From the NCBI RefSeq assembly GCF_016862635.1, contig NZ_BONI01000054.1, positions 1-64,000 on the forward strand: a stretch of DNA of 64,000 nucleotides, given 5' to 3'. Shown here piece after piece: positions 40,986 to 52,250 of this stretch. The notes beneath the pieces were generated by a model. That model was not told where the DNA came from. It ran no database searches and saw nothing but the letters and a program-made list of their open reading frames with translations. The position numbers and the translations under genes are program-made. Source of the DNA: Catellatospora coxensis. Its GTDB lineage: Bacteria > Actinomycetota > Actinomycetes > Mycobacteriales > Micromonosporaceae. Each line of letters starts with the position of its first letter. The stretch's first letter is position 1.

Positions 40986-41414
40986 CTAACGGCTCATCGT
41001 CAGGTCGCCGCGGACGACGTCGCCCACCATGCCGGGCACGGCCTCGGCCGGGTCCGCGCCGAGCGAGATGATCCGGTTGTCCGCGTCCACGTGCACCACC
41101 CGCGGGGTGTACGAGCGGGCGGTGGCCTCGTCGGCCTGCGCGTACGAGATGAGGATGACCAGGTCACCGGGCTTGACCAGGTGCGCCGCCGCGCCGTTGA
41201 TGCCGATCACGCCGGTGCCCCGCTCGCCCGGGATGACGTACGTCTCCAGCCGCGCCCCGTTGGTGATGTCCACGATCGCGACCTGCTCGCCGGCCAGCAG
41301 GTCGGCGGCGTCCATCAGATCCTCGTCGATGGTGACCGAGCCGACGTAGTGCAGGTCGGCCTGGGTCACCGTGGCACGGTGGATCTTGGACTTGAACATG
41401 GTGCGCAGGAACAT
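40986..41414 (-). CDS. panD: Aspartate 1-decarboxylase
   Basis: A 142-aa proenzyme that makes beta-alanine for pantothenate. Self-cleavage occurs at Gly25-Ser26 ([10 protein letters not shown]), creating the pyruvoyl group; Lys10 in [11 protein letters not shown] and [13 protein letters not shown] are also conserved. The start [10 protein letters not shown] aligns with known actinobacterial PanD, and its ATG overlaps the panC stop (TGATG). The C-terminal tail after residue ~118 is variable. Made with PanC in one operon. Confidence 0.97.
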
Positions 41415-42262
41415 CAGGCCGGCTCTTCCTCGGTCGTCGTGGCCGCACCGTCCAGCTGGACGGGCAGGTTGTCGATCAGCCGGGTCGTGCCGACGCGGGC
41501 CGCGACCAGCAGCCGCGCCTGTCCCGGACCCGGATCTTCGCTCAGGTCGACCCCACGCAGGGCCAGGTAGTCCACGTCCACGCCGGCCAGCTCGGCCCGC
41601 GCGGCGGCCAGCACCGCCGCGGGCTCCCGCCGGGCGGCCCCCGCCCGCAGCGCCCGGGACAGGGCGAGCGCGGTCTCCCGTTCCGCCCCGCTCAGGTAGC
41701 GGTTGCGGCTGGACAGGGCCAGCCCGTCCGGCTCCCGGACCGTCGGCACCCCGACGATCTCCACCCCGAGTTCCAGGTCGTGCACCATGGCCTTGATCAG
41801 CGTGAGCTGCTGGTAGTCCTTCTCCCCGAAGAACGCCAGGTCCGGGCGGGTGAGCAGGAGCAGCTTGCCGACCACGGTCAGCACGCCCGCGAAGTGGCCG
41901 GGGCGCACCGCCCCCTCCAGCACCTCGCCCAGCGGGCCCGGGTGCACGGTCACCTGCGGCCGGCCGCCCGGGTACATCACCTCGGGGGTCGGCGCGAAGA
42001 CCAGGTCCACGCCCTCGGCCGCGCACACCGCCAGGTCGGCGTCGAAGGTGCGCGGGTAGCGGGCCAGGTCCTCGTTCGGGCCGAACTGCAGCGGGTTCAC
42101 GAAGATCGTGGCCAGCACGACATCGGCGTGCTGGCGGGCCTCCCGCAGCAGCGTGGCGTGGCCCTCGTGGAGCGCGCCCATGGTCATCACCACGGCGACC
42201 GAGCCCCGCGCGGCCGAGCGGGCCGCGGCCAGCTCCTCGCGGGTGCGTACGACGGCGGTCAC
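41414..42262 (-). CDS. panC: Pantoate--beta-alanine ligase (pantothenate synthetase)
   Basis: A 282-aa enzyme that joins pantoate and beta-alanine with ATP. The adenylate-binding HIGH-like motif is [14 protein letters not shown] (26-39). The KMSKS-equivalent region is [12 protein letters not shown], and [10 protein letters not shown] is conserved. The GTG start overlaps the stop of the DUF2520 gene (GTGA), and its own stop overlaps the panD ATG. The three genes are thus translationally coupled. Confidence 0.97.
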
Positions 42263-43173
42263 TTGGCCGCCTCGCCGAGCTGCCCGGCGTCGGCGGCGGC
42301 CGGATCGGCCAGCACACCCAGCAGCGGCTCGGCGTCGACCGGGCGCAGCCGACCGTTCGCGATCACGCGGTCCGCGGTGCGCCGGGCGAGCGCGACGTAC
42401 GCCGGGAGCGAGTCGGGGGCGGTGCGGGCCAGCTCCTGCACGTGCCGGGCGACGGTGCCCGCGTCACCGCGCGACACCGGTCCGGTGATGGCCGAGTCGC
42501 CCATGCGCAGCGCGTTCTCCAGCGCGGCCGTGAGCAGCGGGCCGAGCACCTTCTCCGGGCTCAGCACGCCCGCGTCGCGCAGCCGGTCGGCCGCCTCGTT
42601 GACGAGGGTGACCAGGTGGTTCGCGCCGTGGGCTAGGCCCGCGTGGTAGAGCGCGCGGCGGTCCTCGGCGATCCACTCCGGGCTGCCGGCCAGGTCGGCG
42701 ACGAGCGCCTGGGCCAGGGCCCGCACGGTGCCGTCGGCGGCGGTGATCCCGTACGAGATGCCGGGCAGCCGGTCGAGGTCGGCGGCGGTGCCGGTGAAGG
42801 TCATCGCGGGGTGCAGCGCCAGCGCGCGAGCGCCGACCGCGGTGGCCGGGGCCAGCACGGCCAGCCCGTGCGCACCCGAGGTGTGCGCCACGACCTGGCC
42901 CGGTCGCAGCGCGCCGGTGGCGGCCAGCCCGGTCACGACGCCGGCCAGCGCGTCGTCGGGCACTGCGATGATCAGCAGATCGGTCGCGGCGCGGGCCACC
43001 TCGTCGGCGGGAAGATTCTGCGCACCCGGGAGCAGGGTGCGGATGCGGTGCTTGGCCGCGGCGGACACGCCCGAAGCGGCGACTACCCGATGCCCCGCGC
43101 CCCGCAGGGCGGCGGCGAGGACCGCGCCGACCCGGCCGGCGCCGATCACACCGATGGTGAGCTCAGCACTCAT
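42259..43173 (-). CDS. Rossmann-fold/DUF2520 protein
   Basis: A 304-aa protein. An N-terminal NAD(P)-binding domain ([25 protein letters not shown], shown by GAGRVG at about 9-14) is followed by VAHTSGAHG near 115 and a helical DUF2520 C-terminal domain (about 150-280) with [13 protein letters not shown]. The fold resembles ketopantoate and pyrroline-5-carboxylate reductases. It is next to panC in mycobacteria as well, so it may supply pantoate as a PanE-like reductase; this is inference. ATG 43173 is used; an in-frame start 36 codons upstream lacks homology. Confidence 0.85.
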
Positions 43174-43297
43174 GATCTGATCCAGTCCTCTTCTTCGGGG
43201 TACCGGTCGGGGCAAGTATGACCCCGTGTCCTGATCACTGGACAGAGACTGTGCGAAACCGCACTGCCGCACGACGTTCACATCTGCACAACGAGAA

Positions 43298-44656: not shown

Positions 44657-45607
44657 ATGCGCTGGCGGGACGCGATGCGAACTGCGCTGTACGGGCCGGA
44701 CGGCTTCTTCGTCCGCGAGCGGCCCGCCGACCACTTCCGGACCAGCGCGCAGTCACCGCACTTCGCCCGCGCGATCGCCGCGCTCGCCGCCGACGTGGAC
44801 CGGGCGCTCGGCCATCCCTCGGTGTTCGACCTGGTGGATGTGGGTGCGGGGCGCGGCGAGCTGCTGTATGGGGTGCTGGCCGCGCTGCCCCCGCCGCTGC
44901 GCCGCCGGGTCCGGCCCGTGGCGGTGGAGGTCAGCGCCCGCGGGGACGACGGTGTCACCTGGCGCACCGAGCTGCCGCGCGGGCTGACCGGGCTGCTGCT
45001 GGCCACCGAGTGGCTCGACAACGTGCCGCTGGACCTCACCCGCGACGGGTCTTACCTGGACACCGAGCTGATGCCGTGCGGGCCCGTCGACGCCGCCGAC
45101 GCCGCCTGGATCGAGCGGTGGTGGCCCGCCGGGCCGGCCGACATCGTGGAAGTCGGGCGCAGCCGCGACGAGGCCTGGGCCGACGCCGCCGGCGCGCTGG
45201 ACGCGGGGCTCGCGCTGGCGGTCGACTACGGACACCTGCGCGACCGGCGGCCGGCGCTGCCGACGGCCACCGGCTTCCGGGACGGCCGCGAGGTGCCCCC
45301 GGCCTTCGACGGCAGCACCGACATCACGTGCCATGTCGCCATGGACTCCATCGCCGCGGCCGGACCGGACCAGGCGGGCGGGCGGTTGCTGGACCAGCGC
45401 ACGGCGCTGCACCGGCTGGGCGTCACAGCCGGCCGGCCCCCGCTCGCCCTGGCCTCGACCGATCCGCTCGGCTACGTACGGGCGCTGGCCGAGGCGAGCG
45501 AGATCGCGGAGCTGACCGCCGCCGGAGGGCTGGGCGCGCACTGGTGGCTGGCGCAGTGGTCCGGCCTCGACCACCGCGAGGTGCCCCTCCTCCACCCGCA
45601 CACCTGA
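44657..45607 (+). CDS. MidA/NDUFAF7-family SAM-dependent methyltransferase
   Basis: A 316-aa protein of the DUF185/MidA family. The family order is visible: ALYGPDGFFVRERPADHF (about 10-27) and TSAQSPHF, SAM-binding DVGAGRGELLYGVL near 60, LLLATEWLDNVPLDL near 115, LALAVDYGHLRDRR near 190, and DGSTDITCHVAMDSI near 220. The mitochondrial homologue NDUFAF7 dimethylates an arginine of NDUFS2, the NuoD homologue. The next gene here is a nuoD, 114 nt downstream on the same strand, so the same reaction is a reasonable proposal. Confidence 0.85.
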   Translation: MRWRDAMRTALYGPDGFFVRERPADHFRTSAQSPHFARAIAALAADVDRALGHPSVFDLVDVGAGRGELLYGVLAALPPPLRRRVRPVAVEVSARGDDGVTWRTELPRGLTGLLLATEWLDNVPLDLTRDGSYLDTELMPCGPVDAADAAWIERWWPAGPADIVEVGRSRDEAWADAAGALDAGLALAVDYGHLRDRRPALPTATGFRDGREVPPAFDGSTDITCHVAMDSIAAAGPDQAGGRLLDQRTALHRLGVTAGRPPLALASTDPLGYVRALAEASEIAELTAAGGLGAHWWLAQWSGLDHREVPLLHPHT

Positions 45608-45642
45608 CGGCCTGCCGCCGCCCAGCCCACAGCGGGTGCAGC

Positions 45643-45693
45643 GTTAAGAAGGTGCCCTTCCTCTACGAATACCGTTAACAAGGTGCCCTTGCT
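45643..45693. repeat. Tandem pair of a 20-nt intergenic repeat (31-nt period)
   Basis: GTTAAGAAGGTGCCCTTCCT (45643-45662) recurs as GTTAACAAGGTGCCCTTGCT (45674-45693), 18 of 20 identical. Each unit contains the partial palindrome AAGGTGCCCTT. The pair sits immediately upstream of the nuoD promoter. I associate this type of repeat with Micromonosporaceae intergenic regions. Confidence 0.75.
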
Positions 45694-45708
45694 TTCTTGG
45701 GGCTGGCT

Positions 45709-45714
45709 TACGAT
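45709..45714 (+). promoter_or_regulatory. Leaderless -10 box (TACGAT), 7 nt before nuoD ATG
   Basis: TACGAT-GGCGCGC-ATG selects ATG 45722 over the ATG at 45713, which overlaps the -10 box. Confidence 0.55.
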
Positions 45715-45721
45715 GGCGCGC

Positions 45722-46879
45722 ATGGTGGCAGCGGGCGGTAGCCGGGAGTTGACGGTCGGCGCGGGGGCCGGGGCGCAGCAGCTCGGCACCGACATGGTGC
45801 TGAACATCGGGCCGCAGCATCCGTCCACGCACGGTGTGCTGCGGCTGAAGCTGGTGCTGGACGGCGAGAAGGTGCTGTCCGCCGAGCCGATCGTCGGGTA
45901 CATGCACCGGGGCGCGGAGAAGCTGTTCGAGGTCCGCGACTACCGGCAGATCCTGGTGCTGGCCAACCGGCACGACTGGCTGAGCGCGTTCAGCAACGAG
46001 CTGGGCGCGGCGATGGCCGTCGAGCGGCTGATGGGGCTGGAGGTGCCGGAGCGGGCGGTCTGGCTGCGTACGGCGATGGCCGAGCTGAACCGGGTGCTCA
46101 ACCACCTGATGTTCCTCGGCTCGTACCCGCTGGAGATCGGCGCGATCACCCCGGTGTTCTACGCGTTCCGCGAGCGCGAGGTGCTGCAGGCCGTCATGGA
46201 GGAGGCCACCGGCGGCCGCATGCACTACATGTTCAACCGGATCGGCGGGCTGAAGGAGGAGGTCCCGGCTGGCTGGACCCGGCGCGCCCGGGAGGCCGTC
46301 GACCTGGTCGCCTCCCGGATGCCGATGCTCGACGACCTGATCCGGCGCAACGACATCTTCCTGGCCCGCACCGTCGGCGTCGGGGTGCTCACCGCCGAGC
46401 AGGCCGCCGCGTACGGCGCCTCGGGGCCCGTCGGGCGGGCCAGCGGCCTGGACTTCGACCTGCGCCGCGACGAGCCCTACCTGGCGTACGGCGAGCTGGA
46501 CGTCCCCGTGGTCACCCGCACCGCCGGCGACTGCCACGCGCGTTTCGAGGTGCTGCTCGACCAGGTGTACGCGTCGCTGGACCTGGTCCGGCAGTGCCTG
46601 GACCGGGTGGACCGGATCGGCGGGCCGGTCAACGTGCGCCTGCCCAAGGTGGTCAAGGCCCCGGAGGGGCACACCTACGCGTGGACCGAGAACCCGCTCG
46701 GCGTCAACGGCTACTACCTGGTGTCGAAGGGCGACAAGACGCCCTGGCGGATGAAGCTGCGCACCGCTTCGTACGCCAACGTGCAGGCGCTGTCCACGCT
46801 GCTGCCGGGCACCCTGGTGCCGGATCTGATCGCCATCCTGGGCTCGATGTTCTTCGTCGTCGGCGACATCGACAAGTAG
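45722..46879 (+). CDS. nuoD: Orphan NADH-quinone oxidoreductase subunit D (NuoD-like)
   Basis: A 385-aa protein homologous to complex I subunit D (49 kDa). The N-terminal [16 protein letters not shown] (27-42) with the quinone-site His, HRGAEKL with Arg63 (the counterpart of the arginine methylated in mitochondrial NDUFS2), [16 protein letters not shown], and the C-terminal [12 protein letters not shown] are intact. No other nuo gene is nearby, so it is an orphan copy. It may substitute for or supplement NuoD of a full operon elsewhere. It sits next to a MidA-type methyltransferase. Confidence 0.93.
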
Positions 46880-49961: not shown

Positions 49962-50486
49962 CTACTGAGCGTCCGGCTTGTCGTCCTCGGGGCGCTTCGG
50001 CACCCGGCACGCCCGCTCCAGCCACAGCGCCGCCCCGACCAGCGCCAGCGAGCAGGCCAGCGAGGTGAGCGCGGTCGGCAGGTCGCGGCTGACCGCGGCC
50101 AGCTGCCGCTGCTGCCCGTCGACGAACAGCCACAGGCTCAGCCCGGCGGCGAACCCGGCGAAGATCGACCCGGCCAGCGAGGACGCCTTGGCCAGCACCG
50201 CGTACCGCGCGACGGCCAGCGGCTCGACCCGTTCCCGGCCCGGCTTGCCCTCCAGCCGCGCCCGGGTCTGCTGCGCCAGCGCGAACTCCACGATCGCGAG
50301 CGCGAGCAGTGTGAACGCCGGCAGCCAGCCGCTGCGGCCGAGGAACGGCAGGGTCGCCAGGTCGAAATACCAGGTGCTGATGACGAGCCAGGCGACGGCG
50401 GCCGAGCCCAGCCCCGCGACGATCAGGGTGGCCGGGTTGGTGGGCTGCAGCCGTGGCTCCGGCGTCTGACTCAACTCGGTCCCCAC
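49962..50486 (-). CDS. DUF3180 membrane protein
   Basis: A 174-aa protein with four TM helices (about 20-40, 50-70, 100-122 and 138-158). It matches the DUF3180 family, which is next to folK in other actinobacteria (Rv3605c position). The loop ARLEGKPGRERVEPLAVARYAVLAKASSLAGS is the conserved part (shown by VEPLAVARYAVLAKASS). The GTG start lies 22 nt past the folK stop, so it is probably cotranscribed. Function unknown. Confidence 0.85.
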   Translation of the reverse strand: MGTELSQTPEPRLQPTNPATLIVAGLGSAAVAWLVISTWYFDLATLPFLGRSGWLPAFTLLALAIVEFALAQQTRARLEGKPGRERVEPLAVARYAVLAKASSLAGSIFAGFAAGLSLWLFVDGQQRQLAAVSRDLPTALTSLACSLALVGAALWLERACRVPKRPEDDKPDAQ

Positions 50487-51054: not shown

Positions 51055-51891
51055 GTGGTGTCCGACCTGATGCACGCGACGCCGCCGGTGGTGATGGGGG
51101 TTCTCAACGTGACCCCGGATTCCTTCTCCGACGGCGGTCTCTACGACGACCTCGACACCGCCGTACGGCACGGGGTGGAGCTGCGTGAGCAGGGCGCGCA
51201 CCTGGTGGACGTCGGCGGCGAGTCGACCCGCCCGGGGGCCGGCCGCGTCGACGCCGACACCGAGATCAAGCGGGTGGTGCCGGTCATCACGGCGCTCGCC
51301 GAGGCCGGCGTGCCGACCAGTGTCGACACCACGCGCGCCGCGGTCGCCGCGGCCGCGGTGCAGGCCGGCGCGGCAGCCGTCAACGACGTCTCCGGCGGGC
51401 TGGCCGATCCGGACATGCGCCGCGTCGTCGCGGAGGCCGGCTGCCCGTACGTGATCATGCACTGGCGGGGGCACTCCGCCGACATGCAGGCGCTGGCCAC
51501 CTACCGCGACGTGGTCGCCGAGGTGCGCGACGAGCTGTCCCGCCGGGTCGACGAGGCGCTGCGCGCCGGGGTCGCCGCCGACCGGCTGATCGTCGACCCG
51601 GGACTGGGCTTCGCCAAGACCCCCGAGCACAACTGGGCGCTGACCCGGCACCTGGACCGCATCATCGACCTGGGCTTCCCGGTGCTGTTCGGGGCCAGCC
51701 GCAAGTCCTACCTGGGCCTGCTGCTCGACAGCCGGCCCGCGGCGGACCGCGACGCGGCCACCACCGCGACCAGCCTGCTGGCCGCCGCGGCCGGGGCCTG
51801 GGGGGTACGCGTGCACGACGTGCGCTCGACCGCCGACGCCCTCGCGGTGTGGCGGGCCACCGGCAGCCCCCGGCTGCGCTACGAAGGCTGA
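51055..51891 (+). CDS. folP: Dihydropteroate synthase
   Basis: A 278-aa TIM-barrel enzyme that joins p-aminobenzoate to the pterin pyrophosphate. MGVLNVTPDSFSDGG (N-terminal pterin loop), DVGGESTRPGA, SVDTTRAAVAAAAV, INDVSGG-like VNDVSGGLADP, IMHWRG, DPGLGFAKT and the C-terminal RVHDVRSTADAL are intact. All catalytic loops look functional. GTG 51055 is set by the leaderless promoter; a second GTG follows directly. folB follows with a 2-nt gap. Confidence 0.97.
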   Translation: MVSDLMHATPPVVMGVLNVTPDSFSDGGLYDDLDTAVRHGVELREQGAHLVDVGGESTRPGAGRVDADTEIKRVVPVITALAEAGVPTSVDTTRAAVAAAAVQAGAAAVNDVSGGLADPDMRRVVAEAGCPYVIMHWRGHSADMQALATYRDVVAEVRDELSRRVDEALRAGVAADRLIVDPGLGFAKTPEHNWALTRHLDRIIDLGFPVLFGASRKSYLGLLLDSRPAADRDAATTATSLLAAAAGAWGVRVHDVRSTADALAVWRATGSPRLRYEG

Positions 51892-51893
51892 CC

Positions 51894-52250
51894 ATGGACC
51901 TCATCACGCTCACCGGCCTGCGGGTACGCGGCAACCACGGCGTCTTCGACTTCGAGCGCCGCGACGGCCAGGACTTCGTCATCGACGTGCAGCTCGGCCT
52001 CGACCTGCGCCCGGCCGCCGCCAGCGACGACGTCGCCGACACCGTGCACTACGGCGAGCTGGCCGCCCGGCTGGCCGAGATCGTGGCCGGGCCGCCGGTC
52101 GATCTCATCGAGACCCTGGCGCAGCGCCTCGTCGATGCCTGCCTGGCCGATCCCCGCGTCGCGCAGGCGGTGGTGACCGTCCACAAGCCACAGGCGCCGA
52201 TCCCGCTGACCTTCAGCGACGTGAGTGTGACGCTGACCGGCACGAGGTGA
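51894..52250 (+). CDS. folB: Dihydroneopterin aldolase
   Basis: A 118-aa aldolase that makes the hydroxymethylpterin substrate of FolK. LTGLRVRGNHGVFDFERRDGQDFVIDV (shown by GNHGVFDFER, substrate Glu), VHYGELA, DLIETLAQRL and VTVHKPQAPI (catalytic Lys) match the family. Length normal. It overlaps no gene and follows folP by 2 nt, so it is in the folP operon. It makes FolK's substrate, although folK is transcribed divergently. Confidence 0.96.
   Translation: MDLITLTGLRVRGNHGVFDFERRDGQDFVIDVQLGLDLRPAAASDDVADTVHYGELAARLAEIVAGPPVDLIETLAQRLVDACLADPRVAQAVVTVHKPQAPIPLTFSDVSVTLTGTR

Follow-up and report, generated by a model that had tools for sequence, protein, structure and literature searches.

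The midA-nuoD2 locus

The stretch of DNA that was analysed, hereafter the window, comprises 64,000 nucleotides of the genome of Catellatospora coxensis. Here midA, encoding a methyltransferase, is followed on the same strand by nuoD2, encoding a subunit of complex I, and the two genes lie between panC and the fol genes, which serve together with their neighbours as synteny markers:

41414-42262, minus strand: panC, synteny marker in conserved order (PF02569, 316.3 bits)
42259-43281, minus strand: DUF2520/Rossmann-like gene, synteny marker in conserved order (PF10728, PF10727)
44657-45607, plus strand: midA, DUF185/PF02636 SAM-dependent methyltransferase of 316 aa (PF02636, 46.8 bits; Pfam cut-off 23.3)
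45642-45662 and 45673-45693: two direct repeats of 21 nt, 90% identical, filling the gap between midA and nuoD2
45679-45691: terminator-like hairpin in the same gap, overlapping the second 21-nt repeat
45722-46879, plus strand: nuoD2, 49-kDa/NuoD-type subunit of 385 aa (PF00346, 249.5 bits; cut-off 24)
45908-45910, plus strand: codon CGG for Arg63 of NuoD2, aligned with Thr64 of Thermus Nqo4 and with the dimethylated Arg85 of NDUFS2
49962-50486, minus strand: DUF3180 gene, a synteny marker beyond nuoD2 (PF11377)
51064-52250, plus strand: folP and folB, likewise synteny markers beyond nuoD2 (PF00809, PF02152)

The order panC, DUF2520 gene, midA, nuoD2 and, further on, folB/folP recurs across many families. 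A phytase-family gene (PF02333, 43351-44598) lies on the opposite strand between the DUF2520 gene and midA. The gap between midA and nuoD2 measures 114 bp (45608-45721), and the core motif of its repeats occurs nowhere else in the window. A scan for sigma-70 promoters in and near the gap found no site; by eye, TACGAT followed by seven bases and then the ATG of nuoD2 (45709-45724) looks like an actinobacterial leaderless promoter. Besides the ATG at 45722, in-frame starts for nuoD2 exist at 45713 (ATG) and 45683 (GTG).

The two proteins

An earlier reading of this DNA from its letters alone (the sequence-only reading) had placed a DUF185/MidA-family methyltransferase at 44657-45607, and this is confirmed by the PF02636 match, which assigns the protein to the MidA/NDUFAF7 family (DUF185, PF02636, COG1565), and by matches to solved structures. 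A profile built from 10 MidA relatives finds the solved DUF185 proteins 4f3n (1.2e-21) and 1zkd (2.2e-15) as well as 5ztz, an NDUFAF7 homolog (3.7e-10), while none of the NCBIfam models matches the open reading frame at E 0.01. The protein carries the stretch VDVGAGRGELL, which we take to be the glycine-rich SAM motif, and G65, G67 and E68 are invariant in 10/10 sequences. It is the product of the only MidA-family gene in the window genome (G000; 9.35 Mb, 222 contigs).

The same reading had correctly recognised a nuoD gene behind midA and an arginine at the codon 45908-45910. Membership of NuoD2 in the NuoD family follows from PF00346 and is accompanied by a match to PRK06075 of NCBIfam (381.7 bits, above its cut-off of 360); the score for the NuoD equivalog TIGR01962 is 390.4 bits, below the cut-off of 459.35. 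Among solved structures 6hum_H (NdhH; E 2e-82) is the best match, and 2fug_4 of Thermus gives 2.3e-81. Arg63 sits in an HRGxEK motif (HRGAEKL; stretch [10 protein letters not shown]), and the peptide around Arg85 of mammalian NDUFS2 is reported as HRGTEK (PMC3750175). Of two residues of the Thermus quinone site, His38 is kept in NuoD2 of the window as His37 and Tyr87 is replaced by Trp86; the tryptophan is found in all 88 NuoD2 locus rows and the tyrosine in 10/10 NuoD1 sequences. The description of nuoD2 as solitary is true of the locus and not of the genome, as a second NuoD gene, here called NuoD1, resides on contig C62, with 36% identity to NuoD2 across 402 aligned positions.

A second complex I gene cluster elsewhere in the genome

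NuoD2 is an orphan by location only. That no other complex I gene lies nearby holds at the locus but not functionally, as candidate partners are found elsewhere in the genome. A second NuoH gene is present on contig C12 of the window genome, surrounded by nuoB2, C2, I2, J2, K2, L2, M2 and N2 (the identities of nuoB2, C2, I2 and H2 were confirmed with Pfam). The N-module subunits searched for in this nuo2 cluster were NuoF and NuoG; neither gave a match, nor did NuoD, and nuoA2 was not found in it, NuoA2 and NuoJ2 to NuoN2 having been sought within the stretches retrieved around the loci. D-less nuo2 clusters of this kind recur in other genomes (L029-L037, L159, L160), some of them truncated where their stretch ends. 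NuoF was found in the ten nuo1 loci only and not in the stretches with nuo2, with the reduced gene set described below or with the clusters of other classes (L062-L065); a complete A to N set without NuoF is present in G260 and in L062-L065. Two details of gene arrangement may be added: in the window genome (L028, 9874-12611) the nuo2 cluster is broken between nuoC2 and nuoB2, where a gene for a sigma-70-type factor, another gene and one of the DUF2252 type intervene, and in another genome (L125 of G313, 1.3-5.8 kb) nuoD2 is immediately followed by NuoM2- and NuoL-like genes.

Where NuoD2 reaches 68% identity or more (49 genomes), a NuoB2 of at least 79% identity accompanies it in 48, and such a NuoB2 is present in 0/139 NuoD2-negative genomes; the exception, G298, has NuoD2 and NuoH2 and no NuoB at or above 79%. 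In G260 (L043, L029) the sole NuoD found is NuoD2 and the sole NuoB found is NuoB2, the nuo2 cluster and MidA are present, and neither nuo1 nor KorA was detected. The idea that NuoD2 is a true orphan was rejected, since a nuo2 cluster or a set of nuoB2, C2 and I2 was found elsewhere in the genomes. The prediction is that NuoD2 serves as D subunit in a second complex I lacking the NADH module, with NuoB2 as its probable direct partner in the company of NuoC2 and NuoI2.

An arginine/threonine switch between the two complexes

The arginine of HRGxEK is present in NuoD2 of 69/69 class genomes read, out of the 78 that have NuoD2, in 10/10 loci of other classes and in 80/80 named loci (one by eye). 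The class genomes read for NuoD2 include L107, and the NuoB2 rows given below include L029 and L172. NuoD1 has threonine at the equivalent position in 12/12 sequences read. NuoB shows the reciprocal state: at position 83 of Nqo6, NuoB1 has arginine in 12/12 and NuoB2 has threonine in 45/45 rows, a different NuoB-like protein (L169) being outside these residue counts and inside the 46 NuoB2 loci. The window genome, with Arg63 in NuoD2 and threonine in NuoB2, carries a D/B pair of the mitochondrial type. In Thermus, the threonine of Nqo4 is described as compensated by Arg83 of Nqo6, Yarrowia NDUFS7 has threonine at that place, and the arginines of the two species take up one and the same position close to cluster N2 (PMC8042128).

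Judged by these residues, the main complex I belongs to the Thermus type (NuoD-Thr/NuoB-Arg) and NuoD2/NuoB2 to the mitochondrial one. The reciprocal exchange implies that one cell carries a Q site of each type and that NuoB2 would be the natural partner of NuoD2. As the arginine is on NuoD2 and the threonine on NuoD1, NuoD2 is the plausible NuoD substrate of MidA.

The same residues bear on the proposal that NuoD2 is an alternative D subunit, exchanged into the main complex I under the control of MidA. NuoD2 accompanies a complete nuo1 in most genomes, and an exchange of isoforms has been suggested for NuoL2/NuoM2 of Streptomyces (PMC3765725, PMC8388888). A complex of NuoD2 with NuoB1 would however place two arginines at one site, whereas NuoB2 offers the complementary threonine in every row, and G260 has NuoD2 and NuoB2 but no NuoD1, which makes such a swap decidedly improbable.

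Co-occurrence and proximity

Among 217 sampled class genomes, 72 have both MidA and NuoD2, 6 have NuoD2 only, 2 have MidA only and 137 have neither (Fisher p 1.4e-47, uncorrected for kinship; MidA matches in G336, E 3.2e-6, and G348, 1.3e-4, were counted as noise). The two genes lie on one contig in 70/72 pairs, in all 70 within 12 kb and in 31 within 300 bp; in the remaining 2/72 they are on different contigs. Of the 80 named NuoD2 loci, 58 have midA inside their 4-kb flanks and 40 have it no more than 300 bp away. The question raised by the sequence-only reading, whether the pair is confined to this genome, is answered by these counts and by the conserved locus order: it is not. The pairing is real and old.

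Several families contain both states. Both genes are present in 9 genomes of family f78 and neither in 13, and in family f6 the numbers are 3 and 1; family f7 contains 1 genome with both and 16 with neither, plus both MidA-only genomes. Family f90 has one genome each with both, with NuoD2 only and with neither, and family f91 one with NuoD2 only and one with neither. Family-level losses of MidA and NuoD2 mostly go together. In the two MidA-only genomes, G394 (L176) and G342 (L177), partial MidA-like genes are placed beside panC and the DUF2520 gene, without NuoD2.

The two genes frequently do not form an operon. Many Streptomyces-type loci have midA convergent with nuoD2, and two lineage types show the pair in convergent or divergent orientation or separated by kilobases. 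Proximity is not a general rule in other classes: for 63 genomes with a MidA match, the best NuoD lies within 12 kb in 30 (in 21 of these MidA is downstream of it and in the same orientation), farther away on the same contig in 3 and on a different contig in 26, with 4 unplaced.

A further candidate role is that of a DNA methyltransferase, as proposed for the MidA of Wolbachia (PMC12455994), with the genomic position of midA being incidental. The genomic bond of MidA is to NuoD2 and its solved relatives include 5ztz, of the NDUFAF7 type of protein arginine methyltransferase; this explanation is the least probable of those considered and seems barely tenable.

Origin of the pair

Four loci from other classes show midA at the end of a complex I cluster. 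In L062, L063 and L065 (family f29) and in L064 (f33), the genes nuoA-B-C-D-H-I-J-K-L-M-N are followed by midA on the same strand, and NuoD has the arginine and NuoB the threonine. In L064 an HtpX-like gene comes after midA, and an HtpX-like gene also follows nuo2 in many class genomes. For HtpX, YajQ, polyprenyl synthetase and KorB the names are presumptive and given on sequence likeness. In families f15 (L058-L061, convergent) and f14 (L066, L067), midA and nuoD are near each other as well.

The sequence-only reading had found the pairing hard to explain by operon inheritance. This is weakened by the four loci in which midA ends a nuoABCDHIJKLMN cluster, but it retains force: in those loci nuoD and midA are separated by seven nuo genes and in the window they are neighbours, so inheritance as a block does not by itself explain the pairing. 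The simplest history would be that nuoD and midA both moved to the panC-fol locus and the remaining nuo genes stayed behind. Such a shared move is the strongest argument for their belonging together.

Conservation of the locus could also be read as frozen ancestral panC-fol synteny, in which case MidA methylates another protein and the pairing with NuoD2 is without functional meaning. The locus order is indeed conserved over many families, six genomes have NuoD2 without MidA, and the two MidA-like genes mentioned above persist at the locus without NuoD2. Frozen synteny does not agree with L062-L065, where the two belong to a single complex I cluster and would have been brought together only by the later move, nor with the varying orientation of a pair that stays in proximity, nor with family-level losses that are mostly joint, and it is therefore considered unlikely, though the most serious of the competing explanations.

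Genomes with a reduced nuo2 gene set

In 29/217 class genomes no NuoH2 is present and NuoD2 is more divergent (41-64% identity; PF00146 has more than one match in four of the 29, G303, G309, G318 and G430). The NuoB2 region was examined in every one of them: 28/29 have a trio of nuoB2, C2 and I2 in a stretch where no further nuo2 gene was detected, and the remaining genome, G457, has its NuoB2 at the end of a contig. The trio sits before yajQ or htpX, which is the position of the full nuo2 cluster in other genomes. Its NuoB2 keeps the four cluster-binding cysteines (CC, GxC-type, PGC) in 29/29 extracted rows and its NuoI2 has both four-cysteine motifs in 27/28 rows, the other row being cut by a contig end. 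Intermediate gene sets occur in G060 (fragments of NuoA2 and NuoH2), G389 (B2, C2 and I2 only) and G306 (B2 and C2 at a contig end).

NuoD2 of the trio type forms one clade (25 rows, support 100/96, in a tree of 62 chosen rows with long branches). Among named NuoD2 proteins, that of Microlunatus flavus is nearest to G438, at 63%. In these 25 rows, residues 57-92 with the Arg63 patch have a mean column identity of 0.78-0.79, equalled by residues 333-344. The stretch 129-152, which we assume to line the quinone chamber, has column identities of 0.45 and 0.33 in the 25 trio rows, as against 0.95 and 0.89 in 22 full-type rows, and His37 is replaced in 6/25 trio rows. Part of the presumed quinone-chamber face of NuoD2 thus appears to have decayed, and the surroundings of Arg63 rank with the best preserved regions. 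MidA is present in 23/29 of the NuoH2-less genomes; the six trio-type genomes in which it is absent keep the arginine of NuoD2.

A reading in which NuoD2 merely completes a full nuo2 everywhere was rejected, as 29/78 NuoD2 genomes are without NuoH2 and their NuoD2 is divergent; it is also contradicted by G060, G306 and G389, which have no intact NuoH2. The trio and NuoD2 may instead constitute a free-standing Q module, an iron-sulfur enzyme derived from complex I that would be soluble or peripheral and would have MidA as maturase, a proposal for which we judge the chances to be even. In such a module NuoD2 and its partners would perhaps act as electron acceptor for ferredoxin or KorAB, and a new acceptor would occupy the former quinone site. 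Neither a stand-alone NuoBCDI nor an actinobacterial MidA-NuoD pair was found in the literature searched, which included few subscription papers. Two candidate precedents were set aside: the Salinispora NDH-1 report concerns, as far as its available text goes, partial NDH-1 operons judged by phylogeny (PMC3314556), and the nuoBCDI of Chloroflexi is presented as part of a rearranged full complex (PMC7117926).

Proposed mechanism and electron donor

In mitochondria, NDUFAF7 methylates Arg85 of NDUFS2 (PMC3829151), and by homology MidA would dimethylate Arg63 of NuoD2. Arg63 is expected to adjoin the iron-sulfur cluster N2 of NuoB2 and may help to lock NuoD2 to NuoB2 during assembly, a locking role having been proposed for the mitochondrial arginine (PMC8042128). 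The sequence-only reading regarded the bacterial reaction as inferred, which stands for actinobacteria but not for bacteria at large, since symmetric dimethylation of the equivalent arginine of Nqo4 is reported from Paracoccus denitrificans (PMC3750175). Its suggestion that NuoD arginine methylation exists in actinomycetes gains from the co-occurrence, the co-location and the presence of the target arginine on NuoD2, with the actinobacterial reaction itself a prediction. MidA and NuoD2 as probable enzyme and substrate are well supported by these lines together with the shared move. In E. coli NuoCD the arginine is present and unmethylated (PMC3750175); together with the six trio genomes that keep the arginine without MidA, this indicates that the arginine can matter without methylation.

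The probable electron donor, in place of NADH, would be ferredoxin or a 2-oxoacid:ferredoxin oxidoreductase (KorAB). KorA, by profile match a protein of the pyruvate/2-oxoacid:ferredoxin oxidoreductase family, has its gene at 26/46 NuoB2 loci counted; in the window genome this gene shares a contig with nuo2, at a distance of about 41 kb (C12:54351-56219). Presumably 2-oxoglutarate is the substrate of KorAB. As an obligatory donor KorAB was rejected, KorA being absent from 8/42 NuoD2 genomes (with a fragment in a ninth). Taken as a whole, the model in which MidA methylates Arg63 of NuoD2 for a second complex I with NuoB2 as partner and ferredoxin/KorAB as donor is given a probability of about three in four.

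Significance and comparison with known systems

A conserved MidA-NuoD2 pair that would serve a second, mitochondria-type Q site holds up on the genomic evidence, and in part of the class a form consisting of the Q module only is apparent from gene content. For methylation of the Arg85 type this would provide a built-in control, as the other complex I of the same cell has NuoD-Thr, and it leads to a prediction of the NuoB partner of NuoD2. The reduced gene set is relevant to the ways in which complex I can be taken apart, and to the functions that its Q module, the part assembled under the control of the mitochondrial enzyme, can perform once the membrane arm is gone.

The nearest parallel is the mitochondrial NDUFAF7/NDUFS2 Arg85 system as reported in PMC3829151 and PMC3750175, with the same enzyme family, the same HRGxEK motif and, as in NuoD2/NuoB2, arginine on the D-type and threonine on the B-type subunit. 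Unlike in mitochondria, the bacterial pair appears to serve a second complex I beside a Thermus-type main one, and methylation is here predicted. Nqo4 of Paracoccus denitrificans is likewise a bacterial NuoD with the equivalent arginine, there methylated, but the modified subunit belongs to the only complex I considered in the available part of that report (PMC3750175). The arginine switch described for Thermus and Yarrowia involves the same two positions and the same exchange; there it is known between species, whereas here both states are found in one genome (PMC8042128). The nuo2 of Streptomyces has the same second cluster without an N module and the same detached nuoD2, and to what the available text of those accounts covers (PMC3765725, PMC8388888) the present analysis adds MidA, the Arg/Thr switch, nuoC2 and the genomes with B2, C2, I2 and D2. 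Finally, the 11-subunit complex I-like enzymes, in the description available (PMC11238625), are likewise without an NADH-oxidising module, but in the present case nuoD2 and midA stand apart from the other genes, and some members of the class keep four soluble subunits only.
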